Of a stretch of DNA of 64,000 nt, positions 39,744 to 47,386 are shown piece by piece; position 1 is the stretch's first letter; every line of letters starts with the position of its first letter. Under the pieces are notes generated by a model that made no database searches, was not told the DNA's origin, and saw only the letters and a program-made list of their open reading frames with translations. The DNA comes from Flavobacteriaceae bacterium (lineage in GTDB: Bacteria > Bacteroidota > Bacteroidia > Flavobacteriales > Flavobacteriaceae), in assembly GCA_030830005.1 (NCBI GenBank), contig JAURNV010000027.1, positions 18,401 through 82,400 of the forward strand. Direction: 5' to 3'. The translations under genes were made by a program, and so were the position numbers.

Positions 39744-40298
39744 TTATTTTTTAATCCGGTGTGCTTCTTGTTGCACAAAGGCACTCCATCCAGAATAACC
39801 TTTTTCAGTTTGTTGTTCGGGGTTAAAAGTATGACACACGGCAGCAGCTAATCCGTCAGTGGCATCAAGATTCTTGGGTAACGGGGGAAGTTGTTGCACC
39901 ATTTGTTGTAACATTTTGGCGACCTGCTCTTTTGAAGCATTTCCATTTCCTGTAATTGCCATTTTAATTTTTCGCGGGGAGTATTCATATATTTTTAGGT
40001 CATGAGCAATTCCTGCAGCGATTGCAACCCCTTGCGCCCGACCTAACTTTAACATTGATTGTACGTTTTTTCCAAAAAAGGGAGCTTCAAGAGCCATTTC
40101 AACAGGCTGGTAGGTTTTAATTAGTTCTGATGTTCGTGCATAAATGTGTCCTAAACGTACATAATGGCTATCGTACTTACTAAGTTTTAATTCATTGAGT
40201 TGAAGGCAGGTGAGTTTCTGCCCCTCTACATGAATTACTCCAAACCCCATAATGGTTGTTCCAGGGTCTACGCCTAAAATAATTCTTGATTCGGTCAT
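39744..40298 (-). CDS. ruvC: Holliday junction resolvase RuvC
   Basis: The 184-residue nuclease cuts Holliday junctions after RuvAB migration. The acidic catalytic residues are in GVDPGTTIMGFGV (Asp), LEAPFFGKN (Glu) and DATDGLAAAVCH (Asp pair), in the correct order for the RNase H fold. Its catalytic positions are intact, unlike those of the RuvC-like domain of the Cas9 encoded nearby. It lies 2 bp upstream of hemW. Confidence 0.96.
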   Translation of the reverse strand: MTESRIILGVDPGTTIMGFGVIHVEGQKLTCLQLNELKLSKYDSHYVRLGHIYARTSELIKTYQPVEMALEAPFFGKNVQSMLKLGRAQGVAIAAGIAHDLKIYEYSPRKIKMAITGNGNASKEQVAKMLQQMVQQLPPLPKNLDATDGLAAAVCHTFNPEQQTEKGYSGWSAFVQQEAHRIKK

Positions 40299-40320
40299 AT
40301 GTAAAAATAGGAATTAAACA

Positions 40321-40767
40321 CTACTTAGAAACATATATCGGTAAGGTCCAAGATACCTCTACTGGGATTTCTAGATTTGTCTTGAATGCAGGTTGAAACC
40401 TAGGTAATGAAGCAACGACATCCTCAACAGCAGAAAAAACTATTGGAGAAATGGTATTCTTGTTAATATTAGAATATCCAATAATAGAAAGCTGCCCAAT
40501 AGTATCAACTTTTAATGTGATAAAGAGAGTATCCATAATCGCTATTCCAGATAGACTCTTTTTGTCAAATTTCTGATCCAATTGGTGTTGCAATATTTCA
40601 GAAAAACAGTGTAAATTTTCTTTAGTGTCTTCTTTAGGGCAATCCGGAAACATCGGAGGCTCATCAAATGGCGTCCAATTTATGTTGGGAGGCTTCGGTT
40701 TAGTCGAAGGCTGTACGCAACTCAAAAACAAAGATAACGTCACAAAAAGAAGCCCAACATATTTCAT
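40321..40767 (-). CDS. Putative lipoprotein with TonB-C-like domain
   Basis: The 148-residue protein has a lipoprotein signal (VTLSLFLSC) with a cysteine at about residue 17 and a proline-rich linker. The C-terminal stretch DTLFITLKVDTIGQLSIIGYS...LPRFQPAFKTNLEIPVEVSWTLPIYV resembles the TonB C-terminal fold seen in many small Bacteroidota lipoproteins. It is likely periplasmic or in the outer membrane inner leaflet. No specific role can be given. It sits 22 bp from ruvC and diverges from the DUF456 gene. Confidence 0.7.
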   Translation of the reverse strand: MKYVGLLFVTLSLFLSCVQPSTKPKPPNINWTPFDEPPMFPDCPKEDTKENLHCFSEILQHQLDQKFDKKSLSGIAIMDTLFITLKVDTIGQLSIIGYSNINKNTISPIVFSAVEDVVASLPRFQPAFKTNLEIPVEVSWTLPIYVSK

Positions 40768-40835
40768 TCTATAAAAGTAAAAAAATAAAAAGGTGTTATC
40801 CGTTTGGCACTTAAATAATTTGTAGTTTCGAAACT

Positions 40836-41327
40836 ATGGATATTGTTTTGTTATGCCTTGGAGTATTGCTAATTATGGTTGGACTTGCAGGAAGTTTTCT
40901 TCCGGTAATTCCTGGTCCTTTGACAAGTTGGTTCGGGTTGTTGACATTGCATTACACAACTAAAGTTGAACAAGATTGGAATTTTCTTGGTTGGACACTT
41001 GCAGTAGCCTTAATAATTATGCTACTCGATTACCTAATCCCCATTTGGGGAACAAAAGCATTTGGAGGCACAAAAGCTGGAGCTGTTGGTTCAACAATTG
41101 GATTGGTAGTCGGTATATTCTTTCCGCCTTTTGGTATTATTCTTGGTCCATTTATTGGTGCTTATGTAGGTGAACTAAGTAAAAATGCTAATCAAAAGAT
41201 AGCATTCAAAGCGGCTGTTGGCTCATTTTTAGGGTTTCTTTCTGGAGTAGCTTTAAAATTAATTGTATCACTGCTATATATGATATTTTTTGTTTCGTCA
41301 GCTTGGAAAGGGTTTCAATTTTTTTAA
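40836..41327 (+). CDS. DUF456 family membrane protein
   Basis: The 163-residue protein is almost wholly hydrophobic with glycine-rich segments: LGVLLIMVGLAGSFLPVIPGPLTSWFGLL, WTLAVALIIMLLDYLIPIWGTKAFGGTKAGAVGSTIG in parts, GIFFPPFGIILGPFIGAYVGEL and a final helix. This is the DUF456 pattern (repeated GxxxG, PGP motif), a family of unknown function in the inner membrane. It is convergent with the Cas9 gene, with the repeat-like sequences lying between them. Confidence 0.85.
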   Translation: MDIVLLCLGVLLIMVGLAGSFLPVIPGPLTSWFGLLTLHYTTKVEQDWNFLGWTLAVALIIMLLDYLIPIWGTKAFGGTKAGAVGSTIGLVVGIFFPPFGIILGPFIGAYVGELSKNANQKIAFKAAVGSFLGFLSGVALKLIVSLLYMIFFVSSAWKGFQFF

Positions 41328-41362
41328 AAGAACCAGAGGCAAAAAGGAAGTGTGTACACTTT

Positions 41363-41426
41363 TCAAATCACAATACTATACTTATTAAAATACGTGTACT
41401 GAAGTTGTTTTGTATCAAATCACAAT
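41363..41426 (-). repeat. Two CRISPR-repeat-like sequences downstream of cas9
   Basis: The 12-nt sequence ATTGTGATTTGA occurs twice on the cas9 strand, at 41415-41426 and 41363-41374, start-to-start distance 52 nt. Its first 8 nt (ATTGTGAT) are the exact complement of ATCACAAT in the tracrRNA-like gene (44876-44883). After a TT/TT internal loop a further GAT pairs with ATC at 44871-44873 for the first copy. In type II systems the 5' end of the repeat pairs in just this way. Beyond 12-13 nt the copies diverge, so a conventional 36- or 47-nt repeat is not seen. They may be remnants of an array or a mini guide locus. Confidence 0.6.
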
Positions 41427-41465
41427 AAATTTTAACTAAACAAAACAATAATAACAGTGTCTTCC

Positions 41466-44400
41466 TTAATGCATCTCTGGAGCTTTTAATTGTTTATAAA
41501 ACGGCCTAATATTCCCTAGTAAATCTATAGTGATTTTAAAGGGGTTATGTGTAAGCCAACCCGTCTTTTTGTCGCCAAAGTTCAATATACGGATGTAATT
41601 TGGGTAGGTTTGATTATATGAATCTAAGTCATAAACCTGTCTAAACTCGTAATATTTACTTGAAATCCGTTGCACTTTATATACATTTTCCCATAAACTA
41701 TCGCCTTGGGCCAAGCGTTGGTAAATTTCTTTTTGACTTAACCCTAAAATAAAACAATCATTACTGTGAAGTGTAGTCACAACCATTCGTCCGTCGTCGG
41801 GAAGTTGATAAAGCGGCTCTTTATTCCTCACACGCCTTACTGCCTCCCAAAAAGAAACAATATTCTCTTGATATACATTATCTAGAGATTGATATATCAT
41901 TACATGATGATTATTACGAGGGTTCACATACTTGTTTTGTTCAGGTGTTAATTGTACCGCATTACTCACATTTTCTCGAATGCGCACCTTTCTAACAGGC
42001 ACTTTATCTCCTCGTTTGTTTGGTAAAAAAATAGTGGTTTCCCAGCCGTACTCTGTTTGCTTAGATAGTGCATTTTTTGGAATCTTACCATTTATAAATC
42101 CTCCACATAAATCTATTTGATCGTAAATCAATTCCCGAATGCTTTGATCAACAACTTTACTTACTTGCTTTGCCGTTGTTAGTGAATTGATAGGTTTTTT
42201 AATGTGAAATGAATCTGCTTTTCCTGCACCTAAATGTTTTCCGTAAAAACTGTCTTTATGCAATTTTCCTCTTGGAGAAGGGCTAAAAACCATAGCCTTA
42301 GAATTTTGAGGAATTTTTCTAAGAACGGTATGGTTTGTGTCAATTGAAACTGAAATACTACTGTACGCATCAAGAGCATCACGAGTAAATTGTTTCCAAG
42401 GAGATGGAAAAACTTCTCTGTATGGTATGGGCTCATATCTGTTCCAATGCCTTAATTCATCTAGATATTTAGGCTCGTTCATTGCCGTTACCAACGCAAT
42501 GAGAGCTGATTCTCTAACATCTAAATGCCTTGGTTTAACCATAAAGGATTTGGGCGAACTAATACCCCATTTTCGGCGCAAACTACTGATAGAATTTCCC
42601 CTTGCAGCAATAACATTAGGGCTAACGCGGCTTAAAAAATTTTTTACTTTAAGAGCAATGTGGTGTTGGTCATTAAACTCTTGTCCAATACTGTCTTTAG
42701 CATATGTTGTCAACACAAAATGCCTGAACTTTTGGTAGGGCGCATGCTTAGCCGAACCCTTTAACAATTGTTCTAATACACGTGTTTTTACTCCTTCCCA
42801 AACCCCAGATGGTTGTTTACTAAAATATTCAAATGGGGTGACATTCAAAATATTCTCTTTAAAGTAGCTCATACACAAGGCCTTATTCCTGTCTGAATCA
42901 TTAAAAAATCTATTCCAAGGTTGTATGTAAACTATGGAGACTTGATCTGTGTAAAGCTGCTCATATGGAATAGGGTCACCCGTATATGGACACATTTTAT
43001 TCCACTCTAACCATAATTTGTATTTAATCAAATTGCTATGAGTAGGATTTTGACCGGCATCAACAACAGCATCATGAATTTGGGGCAGCTCTTGTCTACG
43101 TACTTTTTTTGAGATGTATAAGGATTTTCGCTGTTTCGCATTTACCTTAACCTCGTTTGAAAGCACAAAATTTATATTATCTATTATGCCGTATTCGGAG
43201 ATTAGTTTATTGACCAACTTACGAAGTTCAAAAATGGGTTTTTGAGCTACTGGTTTAAAAATGCGCAGTATATCCTGGTCTTCTGCTGGACTTGAGGGCA
43301 GTAAATCTTGCTTATCTGCATGCTGATGGATTAAATAGAGTTTTTTTGGGTTAAGCTTAACACTAAATGCGTCAAAAAAATGTGATAACCAAAGTGCCCC
43401 ATGGATTTTATCCTCCTCTATGGATGCTTCTATGAAATATATAATTGCTGATTTTTTTTCATCATCTATGTTGTCCCAGCATTTTTCACCTAAAGCGTTT
43501 TTTACACCTCCTAAAATGATTGCGTTTTTTGTGTCAATTCCGTCTCTAAGGAATTTCAAAATCAATCGTGCAGCTTTCATGCTTATTTTAGAAAATCCTG
43601 GCTTAAGCTTAAACACGGCTAAAGCTTTGGCTTTATCAATTGTCAATCCCCATTTACTTCTCAATCTTTCAACCAATTTCTCGTTGTCGGTATAGAAGTG
43701 TAAATCATGCCAAAGTTCATGCTGTTCTTTGTCAGAAAATTGCAAAAATTTTGTTCCAAATGCTGTTTTACGAGCCAAATGAGTAATTGTATGAGCTAAA
43801 AATATTTTTTCTCCGTCTTCATAATTAAATGCTTCAAAATCGTCTATTTCTAATGCGACTCTTACTTTTTTTAAACAAAAAACTTGAAAAGTGAGTAGCT
43901 ATCTTAATCGCTTGCTTTCGTTGGTGGTGATTAAGTGGTTCGCCATATAATTTAATGGAGTCAACCCAACAATAGATATTAAACCATTCATTAAGAGGAT
44001 GGCTCTGCCACATTGTTTTTTTCCCTTTTTCAAATTCACAAGAGGTTGCGCTATTCCCTTGTTTTCTATATTGCGCAGGGCGTTGAGAATACAAAATTCC
44101 TTTGTTACTCTCTTTTCCTAATAATGATTTTCTAAAGTCTTTGTCAAGAAATTCGTGATGGTGTTGCTGTTGCTTTAGTATAGCATCCAACTCATTTAGG
44201 TACATGCTGCGGCTTAGGTACCGATTTCGTATACGCGCTTCATTGTAGGAGTAGGGAGCACAATGAGTTGGTAATAGCGAATTTAAATATTCTCCTAAAT
44301 ACTGATTTTTTAAAAAATGTTTGGTGTCGTTAATGCCTCGACGATTTGCTAAAGGAAGTCCATTTAGTAAAATATTGGCATTTGTAGAATCAATACCATT

Positions 44401-44844
44401 CATTATTTTACCTCTACGCTGAGCAAAATGATACAACACTCTACCTAGCTCTAGCCTTGATAATTTCTCGTGAATTCCAATAGCACGTAACTCATATGGA
44501 TTTAAGGCCATCCATTGGTTCATTTTAATAGAAAGGGTTTTATGCTTATTGTCTTTGCTCCATTTAGAAAGCTCTTTAAGTGTAAGTGGGCATAACTTGT
44601 TTGATGCTAAAAAAGAGAGTGTGTTTTGCTTTCTAAAATTCTTACGCATTTGAAGCTTCCTCACATTTCTAACTTGGGTTCGAAGAGTTGCATTAGAAGT
44701 TTCACGCTCTCCCTCACCCAAATAATTTAAAAAAGAGGAAAAAACTCGCGTACCCATAGCGACAATACGAGGATTGGTAGAATATCTTACAAGCGACCAT
44801 CCTATCGATTCTGTTCCAACATATATGCCTAACGTTTGTTTCAC
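41466..44844 (-). CDS. cas9: Type II-C Cas9 with all nuclease catalytic residues substituted; one frameshift
   Basis: Two consecutive frames (44844-43834 and about 43872-41466) join into one protein of about 1,125 residues when one base of an A7 run is ignored. Order: RuvC-I strand LGIYVGTESIGW; bridge helix with RTQVRNVRKLQMRKN; recognition lobe with LNPYELRAIGIHEKLSRLELGRVLYHFAQRRG; RuvC-II; HNH (LWLEWNKMCPYTGDPI); RuvC-III; a PAM-interacting C-terminus ending NPFKITIDLLGNI. Substitutions: RuvC-I Asp to Y8. In the second frame (numbered from its TTG at 43778), RuvC-II Glu to V205, HNH Asp-His to V283-Y284, RuvC-III His-His to E423-S424 and Asp to I427. HNH Asn (RNKALC) remains. The start is GTG at 44844, right after an in-frame TAA. 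No cas1, cas2 or csn2 is nearby. Confidence 0.93.
43866..43872 (-). other. Frameshift site in cas9 (A7 run)
   Basis: The coding strand reads TTT followed by seven A then GTAAG. With six A the reading frame continues from FLF-K-K directly into VRVALEIDDFEAFNY and the rest of Cas9. With seven it stops 10 codons later at 43834. The downstream frame has no ATG near its beginning (first possible start is a TTG at 43778), so two separate genes are unlikely. It could be a real indel, a sequencing error, transcriptional slippage or a phase-variable tract. Confidence 0.85.
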
Positions 44845-44866
44845 TTAAAATTTTTTTTTATATTTG
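44835..44866 (+). promoter_or_regulatory. Promoter of the tracrRNA-like gene (TTTG-N20-TATATTTG)
   Basis: TTTG at 44835-44838, 20 nt, then TATATTTG at 44859-44866: an exact Bacteroidota promoter on the plus strand. The -33 element lies inside codons 2-4 of cas9 and drives transcription away from it. The predicted start near 44870 coincides with the beginning of the anti-repeat-like sequence. Confidence 0.8.
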
Positions 44867-44869
44867 TGA

Positions 44870-44941
44870 CATCTTATCACAATAAGGCTAATGCCGTGGA
44901 CAACATGTCCAGCGTCCCGCTTAGGTGGAACATTTTTTTTT
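44870..44941 (+). ncRNA. Predicted short tracrRNA
   Basis: The sequence begins with an anti-repeat (ATC, TT, ATCACAAT at 44871-44883) complementary to the repeat-like copies downstream of cas9. It continues AAGG and a nexus-like hairpin GGC-TAAT-GCC (in AATAAGGCTAATGCC), a second hairpin TGGAC-AACAT-GTCCA and a small AGCG/CGCT stem, and ends in a run of nine T (44933-44941). The order anti-repeat, AATAAGG, nexus, stem-loops, U-run is that of type II-C tracrRNAs (compare the CACAATAAGG-like junction in other tracrRNAs). Predicted length is about 72 nt, which is short, and the anti-repeat is minimal. Confidence 0.75.
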
Positions 44942-45277
44942 GCTTCACTTTGATTTTAATTAAAGGGGAAGCCGAGTAGATTCTCGACTTGACCCCTTAT
45001 AATGTAGCATAACAATCAAAGCAAAAAATGTCGGTTCATCTGCTACGAAAGAACCTATATTCGGGCAAAAAAGGTAGTGGGCACAACTGCTCTTTTCAAA
45101 TTGGTTGTCTAAATACGATTCCCACTTGTAGCAAATATGCATGTGCTGTTAGCTAAGCGCGCTAACAACTATCAAAATGACATTCAAATAAGTTGAAGTA
45201 ACCCCGTGAGGAGTTGAATTTTAAAAAAAGTATAGTTTTTGAGTTGTACTATAAATCTTACTATTTATAGTACTTCA
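44942..45277. other. Non-coding spacer between tracrRNA and ppiD with several inverted repeats
   Basis: No convincing gene; a 60-codon frame on the reverse strand (45142-44960) has no recognisable features. I see: an imperfect inverted repeat between 44930-44955 and AATCAAAGCAAAAAATGT (45014-45031); between its arms a hairpin AAGGGG..CCCCTT (44963-44998) with inner AAGCCGAG/CTCGACTT; AGTGGG (about 45075) against CCCACT (about 45120); and TGTTAGC/GCTAACA (45147-45167). It might hold a structured RNA, a relic of an inserted element, or the cas9 leader and promoter region. Confidence 0.5.
45246..45273 (-). repeat. Perfect 11-bp palindrome after the ppiD stop
   Basis: GTACTATAAAT (45246-45256) and ATTTATAGTAC (45263-45273) flank a 6-nt loop, only 4 bp beyond the ppiD stop codon. 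The stem is AT-rich and has no immediate U-run on either strand, so it may be a 3'-end stabilising hairpin or a protein-binding palindrome and not an ordinary terminator. Confidence 0.6.
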
Positions 45278-47386
45278 CTAATAATATTGCGGCCTGTTAT
45301 CAATAATCTCGTATGAATCTTTTACTGCATCGGCTACGCGGGTTTCTACATTAAGTCTCAATGTATTTGCAATTGAAGATTTATAACCCGCATAATTTGT
45401 AAGTTCTTGGGCTTTATTTAAAGCTTTTAGCTGAACTACATAAACACCTGATTCACCAACAATTGGTTTAGAAATATCATTTAAACGCATACCAAATACA
45501 GCGCCAACAACTCCGGGCTCTTTAGCAGCCCCTGCAAGCATGGTAGTAAAACGATTAACTGCATTTGAAGTGCTTACCGAAACATCAAATTGCTTTGCTA
45601 AGTCCTCAAGGGTTGTGTAATTGCCTAATTGTTTTAACAAAAGTGCTTTTTTCTTTTCCTTTAATACTTTTAATGATACATCCCCTTCCACTTCTTCAGG
45701 ACTTGGTGTTCCTGCGTTATTAAGTTTTGCAATTTGGACAATGATATATCCTCCAGAGGACAACGAGAATCGCTTAACATCCAATGCTTTTCTATCTTCT
45801 TCAAACGCCCATCGGACCACTTGACGTTGGTTGCCAATTGCTGGAAGAGACTCATCTAAAACTTTTACATCATTTATAGTCTTAAGACCATAACCTTTTA
45901 ATGTTGCTAACTCTTTAAAATCTGTCTGATTTACATCAAGTTCAAATTGAGTTGCTTCTGTAAACACTTGATTACTGGTGCGTTCGGAAGGAATTAGTTT
46001 TTTTGCAACTGTAGCTAACTTCACTACATCTTTTTTGTCTTGAACCTCAATTACATGAAACCCAAATTCAGTTTCAACAACGCCTAAGGCTCCAATACGA
46101 TTGTTAAATACAAAATTGCTAAAAGGAGCAACCATGTCTTCACTTGTAAATTCAGGTAATTCACCTCCATTAGAAGCGGATGGTCCGTCAGAATTTGTGC
46201 GTGCCAGTTGCGTGAAATCTCCTCCTCGTTTTACAGAGGACAATAATTTTGATGCTTCTCTTTTTGCTTCTGCCTTGGTGCGTGTCACTGTTTCTGAAGC
46301 TCTAGCCGCACCCTTATAAGCGACTAAAATATGGCGCGCTTTTGCTTTCCCCCCATTTTTACGGCTTACCAGTCGTGATATTTTACTGTACCCTTGATCT
46401 TCGTATGGTCCAAACACCTCGCCCACTGGAAGGTTAAAAAGCGTATTTGCGTAATTGCTAGAAAGTTCGCTTTTTGTCAAAAAAGCATCTTGATATTGTA
46501 CGTCAGAGTACTCGTTGATAAATGATGCTATTGCATTTTCTGTGACTGTTGCTAATGAAGGAAAAACTTCTTCTTGTTTGGAAACTTCGTTAAATGCGCG
46601 GCGTTCAACTAACAACTCCCGTAATTCATTTTGAATCACAATCTTATCCTCGGGCGTAGGGATTTCAGAAAACATTACATAGCGTAAATCTCTTGAGGCA
46701 ACACGTTCGTAGTTATCAGCATTTTCTTTAATATAGGATGCAATATCTTTGGAAGTAACCTGTGCAAGGCTGTCAGAAATAATATCATAAGGAATACGAA
46801 CATAGTCTAAATCAGCAAGGTTGTTTTGCAATTCATAATTTTGTTTTGCTTCAAAATTAGTCACATTTAGGCCTACATTGACCATGTCTTGATATTGCTT
46901 TAACCTAATATTGTCCTTAATAGAAGACTCCTGAGCTTTCCACTGTTCAAAACCTTGTGGGTTATTTTGTCTTAAATCTAAGATGAAATCAGCAAAGAGT
47001 TCTGTATCAAAAGAGCCGTCTTGTCCCTGAAATTGGGGGTCATTGGAAAAATTTGGGTCAGCTTTTAAAAATTGCTCGATGTGATTTTTGCCAACATATA
47101 ATCCTAGGGCGTCAAAAGTTTGTTTAAAAGCCTTTGCATTTGTAGATTGATCATAGGCAAATGCTACAGCTTGCATTGTGGACATGCGATAATTGCGTTC
47201 AACAAATTCTACCTGACGGCTAAATTCATCAATGTCAATTTCTTCTTCACCCACAACAATTACGGGATCTTGACTTGCCGATGAACTTGCATCAAAAACT
47301 CCAGTGAATACAAACGCCAATAGCGCCATTCCAATAATAAATATTAAAAAAATAGAACGCTCTCTGATTTTACCTAAAATAGCCAT
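45278..47386 (-). CDS. PpiD/SurA-type periplasmic peptidyl-prolyl isomerase
   Basis: The 702-residue protein has a single N-terminal membrane anchor (SIFLIFIIGMALLAFVFTGVF), a large SurA_N-like chaperone region, and a parvulin domain at about 340-460 (KARHILVAYKGA, GGDFTQLARTNSDGPSASNGGEL, FGFHVIEVQDK), then a second, degenerate parvulin-like part. It resembles PpiD, a membrane-bound chaperone that helps outer-membrane proteins fold after translocation. It is the last gene of an envelope cluster that runs from coaX down to here, which fits a role in envelope biogenesis. Confidence 0.9.
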   Translation of the reverse strand: MAILGKIRERSIFLIFIIGMALLAFVFTGVFDASSSASQDPVIVVGEEEIDIDEFSRQVEFVERNYRMSTMQAVAFAYDQSTNAKAFKQTFDALGLYVGKNHIEQFLKADPNFSNDPQFQGQDGSFDTELFADFILDLRQNNPQGFEQWKAQESSIKDNIRLKQYQDMVNVGLNVTNFEAKQNYELQNNLADLDYVRIPYDIISDSLAQVTSKDIASYIKENADNYERVASRDLRYVMFSEIPTPEDKIVIQNELRELLVERRAFNEVSKQEEVFPSLATVTENAIASFINEYSDVQYQDAFLTKSELSSNYANTLFNLPVGEVFGPYEDQGYSKISRLVSRKNGGKAKARHILVAYKGAARASETVTRTKAEAKREASKLLSSVKRGGDFTQLARTNSDGPSASNGGELPEFTSEDMVAPFSNFVFNNRIGALGVVETEFGFHVIEVQDKKDVVKLATVAKKLIPSERTSNQVFTEATQFELDVNQTDFKELATLKGYGLKTINDVKVLDESLPAIGNQRQVVRWAFEEDRKALDVKRFSLSSGGYIIVQIAKLNNAGTPSPEEVEGDVSLKVLKEKKKALLLKQLGNYTTLEDLAKQFDVSVSTSNAVNRFTTMLAGAAKEPGVVGAVFGMRLNDISKPIVGESGVYVVQLKALNKAQELTNYAGYKSSIANTLRLNVETRVADAVKDSYEIIDNRPQYY

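Follow-up and report, generated by a model that had tools for sequence, protein, structure and literature searches.

A catalytically inactive Cas9 family of Flavobacteriaceae is probably a domesticated RNA-guided DNA-binding regulator with hard-wired guides

What is a Cas9 that has lost its nuclease residues good for, and is it more than a gene on its way out? The question is raised by a locus in a 64,000-nt stretch of DNA (hereafter the window) from a Flavobacteriaceae bacterium (GCA_030830005.1, contig JAURNV010000027.1), in which a cas9 gene is dead in the sense that the pattern of the active enzymes is missing at its catalytic columns. A preliminary description of this DNA had noted a kept Cas9 layout with changed nuclease residues, a single indel and a missing cas1, and had offered two explanations: selection for RNA-guided binding without cutting, in a gene regulator or a defence by binding, or very recent loss. 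All three observations hold, and to that account we add a putative trans-activating CRISPR RNA (tracrRNA), guide units, a shared synteny and a family. The sequences suggest that the gene probably belongs to an ancient, vertically inherited dead-Cas9 family domesticated as a hard-wired RNA-guided DNA-binding regulator, not a nuclease. Coordinates are positions in the window, and L, G and P label loci, genomes and database proteins.

By profile and predicted fold, the window protein is a Cas9, and it is type II-C-like. Its gene is read in two frames (Table 1), both matching the cas_Csn1/Cas9 profile TIGR01865 above the curated cut-off of 100; among Pfam profiles, HNH_4 was matched and RuvC_III fell slightly below its cut-off. 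One +1 frameshift in a run of seven adenines (A7) separates the two: the 5′ frame runs out of frame at its 3′ end, past the run, and the true frame of the 3′ part extends upstream to the run at 43866, where the consensus of relatives is FKKVR. Read across the frameshift, the protein has 1,125 aa. Because an intact, near-identical 1,125-aa allele exists in the protein database (P0011, three residue differences, a fourth being merely the GTG start translated as Val), the frameshift is not fixed and is either a strain difference or an assembly error; the assembly comprises 1.55 Mb in 42 contigs, is 88% complete, and holds a single Cas9 locus over the cut-off, with one other match far below it. 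The AlphaFold model of P0011 (predicted local distance difference test, pLDDT, 80; predicted template modelling score, pTM, 0.61) superposes best on Nme1Cas9 bound to single guide RNA (TM 0.62/0.66).

At the seven active-site columns of RuvC and HNH, active relatives read DEEHNHD and the window protein YVVYKSI in the alignment. In the numbering of SpCas9, which we take to apply to these columns, D10 is replaced by Tyr8 (TAT), E762 by Val560 (GTG), the HNH acid by Val638, H840 by Tyr639, N863 by Lys662, H983 by Ser779 and D986 by Ile782; neither the RuvC set (D/E/H/D) nor the HNH set (acid/H/N) of an active Cas9 endonuclease is present. The earlier account of the HNH change as Asp-His to Val-Tyr was right in its outcome and wrong in its Asp ancestor, as near active relatives carry Glu-His (IEHI) at this pair, so that a single base change in an Asp codon does not simply account for Val638. 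Its argument that each replacement lies one base away from the active codon has no weight, because the losses are shared by the whole clade. Since the same positions are lost across the clade, the window's losses are not chance.

DEEHNHD is found in 115 of 142 aligned database proteins, and the remaining 27 are P0001-P0027. In 47 dead sequences longer than 1,000 aa (those of 1,000 aa or less were left out, and dead was defined by the lack of the active pattern at these very columns), a mean of 61% is kept at the 386 columns that are at least 98% uniform in 135 actives, and only 0-19% at the seven catalytic columns; the HNH acid and N863 are kept in none of the 47, E762 in eight and H983 in nine. 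RuvC replacements vary widely (His, Phe, Ser, Thr, Tyr or Arg at D10), and those in HNH are conserved (Val in 40/47, Tyr in 43/46, Lys in 33/47). HNH is also the best-kept domain of the dead clade, with 57% identity between dead proteins as against 48% overall, and the C-terminal wedge and PAM-interacting (WED/PI) part reaches 54% (PAM, protospacer-adjacent motif). As judged from the alignment, the RuvC centre is in relaxation and the HNH centre in a new conserved state, which is not decay.

The window gene does not stand alone. The 3′ frame is matched in 10 of 17 genomes of the genus, the window's included; copies are intact and full-length in G011, G013, G014 and G016, frameshifted in G010, cut by contig ends and Ns in G007, and reduced to C-terminal remnants in G001, G008 and G015, and the seven genomes with no match are all incomplete assemblies. 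Readable copies in the genus share the dead state, and active copies in sister strains, named in the preliminary description as a mark of a plain pseudogene, did not appear in the 17 genomes. Among the best 120 matches of a protein search, 25 clusters form the group of the window protein (57-99% identity, all but one full length), and two more distant proteins, P0026 and P0027, are dead as well. A family-level sample matched in 85 of 397 genomes, many only weakly, to long Cas9s whose residues were not read. A scan of named genomes yielded 80 loci, 28 of them dead copies or remnants from organisms titled Flavobacteriaceae, Flavobacteriales, Bacteroidota or Bacteroidetes (L124 is from Candidatus Arcticimaribacter). 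The C-terminal part of cas9 remains in L022 (8500-8960), L020, L129, L159, L066 and L067.

A FastTree phylogeny of 69 sequences splits 34 dead from 35 active ones by a single branch, with one change and a local Shimodaira-Hasegawa-like support of 100; the seven catalytic columns were left in among the 1,143 kept, and L110 forms a long branch. The dead loci also share a place: among 36 loci, whether dead, remnant or empty, a DUF456 gene adjoins the site in 35 (in the exception, L068, a contig end cuts the locus, and a few genomes occur twice), and it lies beside none of the 13 active loci that were compared with 28 dead ones from the 80 named-genome loci. Beyond DUF456 usually lie a lipoprotein gene, ruvC, hemW and a peptidase gene. 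The family is apparently ancient and vertically inherited.

The ratio of nonsynonymous to synonymous substitution rates (dN/dS) indicates that the dead cas9 is under purifying selection. For pairs with dS below 2 it is 0.142 (L087/L090), 0.090 and 0.107 (L082/L085) and 0.109 (L107/L122), and 0.059 and 0.068 for the C-terminal remnant of L129; more saturated pairs, with higher dS, give 0.07-0.17. Neighbouring genes, taken as the comparator, have ratios of 0.02-0.21, near those of the dead gene. The unsaturated range of 0.06-0.14 is not near 1, the value that had been named as a sign of relaxed selection, and of the two explanations first offered, it upholds selection. Recent loss is contradicted, because copies in the genus are dead too and the dead sequences form one clade at one syntenic place with dN/dS of 0.06-0.14.

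Beyond the protein, the locus carries what looks like RNA machinery. Divergent from cas9 lies a predicted tracrRNA, whose predicted promoter (Table 1) has an arrangement that we take to be the -33/-7 promoter type of Bacteroidota; by eye, a similar one occurs in L098. The tracrRNA-like element could be aligned across all 20 dead loci examined (the piece of L089 that was aligned is without the anti-repeat, which is present in the locus), with compensatory changes at 4 of 14 pairs, and a similar element stands beside active cas9 in six of seven active loci viewed. Pairing of 25 repeat units, from 17 loci, with the anti-repeat of the respective locus gives -11.8 to -21.8 kcal/mol, an energy as low being reached by at most 4 of 300 shuffled repeats. 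Judged by sequence and pairing, a putative tracrRNA with the anti-repeat of type II systems is present. Rfam gave no match above the gathering score within 40000-47000.

Directly downstream of cas9 lie the putative guides. Active relatives have arrays of GTTGTGGTTTGATTAAAGATTAG... downstream, on the cas9 strand, and at the array position the dead loci have no more than the initial 12-16 nt of the repeat, in a single copy in 14 loci of a sister subclade and in two copies in 15 loci of the window's subclade. The orientation of the repeats in these guide units was inferred from the active arrays. In all nine of nine genomes of the genus, unit A has 34 and unit B 22 consecutive invariant columns. 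Unit B is, from its sequence, likely a homologue of the single unit of the sister subclade, where 28 consecutive columns (12 of guide and 16 of repeat) are invariant in 14/14 loci and most of the surroundings are unconserved. The PAM-proximal 9-13 nt of the guides are conserved across species. Because the guide of type II systems is the RNA 5′ of the repeat, we read the conserved 5′ parts as hard-wired guides, and the units after cas9 are predicted to encode them.

Of the adaptation side of a CRISPR system, cas1, the gene sought, appears to be gone. We found no cas1 in the whole window assembly (88% complete) nor in any of the 29 genomes that carry a dead cas9 or a remnant of it, and found it in three of three active controls. 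A simple k-mer finder, run on the fetched loci, gave no CRISPR array in L015-L022, L050, L060, L061 or L064-L069; its one call among the dead loci, of two units at the contig end of L014, is by eye tRNA sequence. Of the 11 fetched loci with other cas9s (one of them L062, whose residues were not read), 9 had arrays. As far as sequence tells, the dead locus lacks both the nuclease residues and the cas1 of a type II immune system.

Table 1. Features of the dead cas9 locus, by position in the window
Feature	Position	Strand	Basis or remark
Dead cas9, 5′ frame: RuvC-I, bridge helix, start of recognition lobe (REC)	43834..44844	-	TIGR01865, 137 bits; GTG start
Dead cas9, 3′ frame: REC to C-terminus, HNH and RuvC-II/III residues replaced	41466..43778	-	TIGR01865, 211 bits
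A7 run with +1 frameshift, not fixed in the species	43866..43872	- (T7 on + strand)	intact allele P0011
Predicted tracrRNA promoter, TTTG-N20-TATATTTG, overlapping the cas9 start	44835..44866	+	by eye
Predicted tracrRNA, divergent from cas9: anti-repeat (44871-44887), nexus, hairpin, terminator hairpin, T-run	44868..44941	+	alignment
Whole putative guide-RNA element, directly after the cas9 stop; closed by GGAAG/CTTCC, ends in a T-run	41341..41465	-	sequence
Guide unit A: guide-like part 41427-41446 (ends AGTTAAAATTT), truncated repeat 41407-41426 (ATTGTGATTTGATAC...)	41407..41446	-	
Guide unit B: guide-like part 41375-41395 (ends AAGTATAGT), truncated repeat 41360-41374	41360..41395	-	
DUF456 gene, convergent, syntenic landmark of dead loci	40836..41327	+	PF04306, 133 bits
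SurA/PpiD-like peptidyl-prolyl isomerase gene, upstream neighbour in the window's subclade	45278..47386	-	profile match and synteny

In place of the SurA/PpiD gene that precedes the locus in the window's subclade, the sister subclade has a small open reading frame (ORF) resembling LuxR-type helix-turn-helix (HTH) proteins, which exceeded the Pfam HTH cut-off in one of four tested. This conserved, weakly LuxR/GerE-like ORF of about 130 aa (L098 6469-6906, L103 6438-6929, L106 6501-6893, L109 4237-4653 and others) immediately precedes the tracrRNA and dead cas9, a gene for a sigma factor of extracytoplasmic function (ECF)-like type lying divergent beyond it, and is a possible regulatory partner. 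Two assemblies with a dead copy have a second Cas9. L268 (3243-5105, G429) has a canonical-looking Cas9 start with LGLDLGTTSIGW, in an assembly without cas1; in L267 (G414, contig C45) the second Cas9 has a changed RuvC-I motif and lies beside a PpiD-like gene, on a contig perhaps foreign to the G414 bin.

What might such a locus do? A gene regulator is the best-supported function, given the tracrRNA-like element, the fixed guide-like units, and the lack of cas1 and, in fetched loci, of an array. The tracrRNA is predicted to pair with the truncated repeats, one or two in number, of the units that follow cas9 directly, and the 5′ parts of these units would serve as fixed guides. Dead Cas9 would load these guides, and the ribonucleoprotein (RNP) would open one or a few fixed chromosomal sites, leaving the DNA uncut, and, while bound, may change transcription there, as TldR and short-guide Cas9 repressors do. 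A fuller version of this proposal, which we hold about as readily as we doubt it, is that of a natural dead Cas9 (dCas9): a CRISPR-Cas9 locus turned into a hard-wired transcription factor, with HNH rebuilt as a conserved, non-catalytic domain, the repeat cut to its tracrRNA-binding half, one or two guides frozen to host sites, and, in one subclade, a small-RNA gene beside aroB as the site.

The search for targets supplied that lead. A 12-mer sought in 13 genomes found an orthologous intergenic site beside aroB in G415 and G423. In G423 an 18-nt match (TTCATAAATAAATATAGT) lies between the proline dehydrogenase gene and aroB, and the orthologous matches have 15 nt in G415, 11 nt in G422 and 18/19 in G424 (upstream of aroB). 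At this place in the four loci (L298, L299, L300, L301) we predict a small-RNA gene on the opposite strand, made up of a TATATTTG- or TATGTTTG-like box, a hairpin antisense to the guide and a terminator. By eye, of 30 loci (one of them empty and one a distant paralogue), only these four have the match, and we regard the predicted small-RNA gene as a target lead in four genomes. In G420 the 10-mer TAAATATAGT, often within ATTAATAAATATAGTAARCA, has 54 copies compared with 10 of the reversed control (13 vs 9 and 23 vs 9 in its near relatives G414 and G416); the 19 usable of 20 chosen places (L248-L266), one being the locus itself, show a mixed coding and intergenic motif.

Other searches were less productive. 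The 13-mer of guide A found its own locus in all nine genomes and one further place each in G014 and G015, the latter within apparent coding sequence. The G014 place (L080 1350-1660) is a 15-nt match, or 19 nt with the first bases of the repeat, just 5′ of a porin gene that adjoins a gene for an Amt-like ammonium transporter; we do not claim it as a target, as the porin is absent from the other loci examined, including the exact 11-mer sites of G000 and G011. The 10-mer of the sister-subclade guide, sought in 14 genomes, gave at least 22 sites for G412, G418 and G421, two of which are the locus itself; 20 of the 22 listed were viewed, and the only orthologous pair among them, the locus apart, precedes a gene for a small membrane protein. 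That site was rejected, as by eye it is not conserved in other genomes having the gene. An 11-mer of A and a 10-mer of B stayed at background level in five genomes, and apart from the locus no site was found in more than two of them. Self-targeting of the cas9/tracrRNA promoter was likewise discarded, the matches being of only 7-9 nt in some members and not conserved.

Several observations weigh against a regulator. Guide seeds occur near background, G420 apart, and no exact match of at least 10 nt is common to the family. Of the 20 dead loci with full span, 7 have a stop or a frameshift, that of the window among them, compared with one of the 22 active loci in the tree, so that the dead gene breaks more often; L109 is broken by several, and of the five contig-cut dead loci outside this count (L112, with Ns, L119, L121, L123 and L124), L121 and L124 are broken too. 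Several lineages have only a C-terminal remnant, one site (L069) is empty, and the guide element persists in the remnants L129, L020 and L159 without most of cas9. Single catalytic residues are also kept in some members (D10 in 3/46, H840 in 2/46, D986 in 5/47). The dead gene is therefore long kept yet dispensable in some lineages. The breakage, the window's own frameshift, the remnants and the empty site would all suit a plain pseudogene or a very recent loss of a CRISPR-Cas9 system, which we consider very unlikely indeed: 13 of the 20 loci are intact, the window protein has an intact allele, the clade is single with low dN/dS in unsaturated pairs, and the RNA elements are invariant over large divergence, all of which contradicts this explanation for the family. 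That members of the family have retained DNA cleavage by means of relocated or alternative residues is extremely improbable, as no evidence in support was found (no systematic search for a new acidic cluster was made), all seven positions are hit in the window and the clade's RuvC positions vary widely, even if enzymes with unusual active-site residues exist.

The remaining alternatives concern what the RNP, or the RNA by itself, would act on. Descent from an immune Cas9 and the kept tracrRNA-like element would fit a defence that binds invader DNA without cutting, with guides supplied by its own units or by arrays at other places; we rate it very improbable, and this half of the earlier proposal of regulator or defence fits worse than the first, because the guides near the repeat are fixed across species, and cas1 is missing from 29/29 genomes and arrays from the fetched dead loci. 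The antisense match of 11-19 nt between the guide and the small-RNA gene predicted next to aroB in four genomes could instead mean that the RNP acts on RNA, its guide units pairing with a small RNA or mRNA as an RNA-binding riboregulator or sponge. A II-C scaRNA has been reported, in an excerpt of PMC13431127, to regulate an operon post-transcriptionally; action on RNA is nevertheless unlikely, the domains of a DNA binder being kept, with WED/PI and HNH the best-kept large parts in dead-dead comparison. Just as improbable as the defence is a further alternative, in which the downstream element is a small RNA or 3′ untranslated region with a function of its own unrelated to guiding Cas9; its location in the cas9 3′ region and its persistence in the three remnants speak for this. 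Against it, the first part of the CRISPR repeat of active relatives is found within the element, the element is able to pair with the tracrRNA, and in L022, the remnant with the most decay, a mutation has struck one of the two repeats.

How does the proposed regulator compare with known systems? Active Flavobacteriaceae II-C Cas9s, about 35-37% identical to P0011, share with the dead family the fold, domain order and length, a similar tracrRNA, the first half of the repeat and the position of repeats downstream of cas9, whereas the dead family is without catalytic residues and cas1, has no array in fetched loci, has a repeat shortened from 36 to about 16 nt, and keeps fixed guides at a fixed chromosomal site. 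Cas12m and the nuclease-dead Cas12f that works with sigma factors are natural examples of RNA-guided binding without cleavage, the likeness that dead Cas9 would have to them; they differ in their type V lineage. In the systems of tracr-L and scaRNA, Cas9 is catalytically active and immune, unlike the dead family with neither cutting residues nor cas1. With Streptococcus pyogenes tracr-L (whose match is 11 nt) and Francisella scaRNA, Cas9 represses host DNA without cutting, according to an excerpt of PMC8616872, and dead Cas9 would resemble them in this binding. Phage II-C2 Cas9 is likewise a natural Cas9 with a lost nuclease centre, RuvC being inactivated and HNH apparently active in the excerpted 2025 classification (PMC12669027); there, one centre is affected in a phage-borne protein, and in the dead family both are, at a fixed chromosomal site.

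The closest parallel in kind is TldR, described in the excerpted text of PMC13418256 as domesticated, TnpB-like, nuclease-dead repressors in which guide RNA and DNA binding are apparently not lost and guides as short as 6 nt still act. Because guides that short suffice for TldR, and 11 nt for tracr-L, going by these excerpts, the 9-13 conserved nucleotides of the dead-Cas9 guides could be enough. Inactivation of the nuclease, domestication and short guides would be common to both. TldR belongs to the TnpB/Cas12 lineage with its own kind of guide RNA, whereas dead Cas9 has two dead centres and a tracrRNA/CRISPR RNA pair, and the window protein is a Cas9 by profile and fold, without the TnpB/Cas12 homology that marks a TldR. 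Its function would thus resemble that of TldR, as a Cas9 counterpart, yet the family is not TldR. Among the matches listed in open-licence PubMed Central, without preprints, none described a natural Cas9 that has lost both centres.

The laboratory dCas9, with two mutated residues, is a standard tool. If the regulator reading is true, evolution has arrived at this design starting from Cas9, just as it had with TnpB in the case of TldR, and the family would offer a compact dCas9 of natural origin (about 1,125 aa) that is already suited to binding DNA and leaving it uncut. For type II systems, the domestication of CRISPR effectors as transcription factors would thereby become directly testable.

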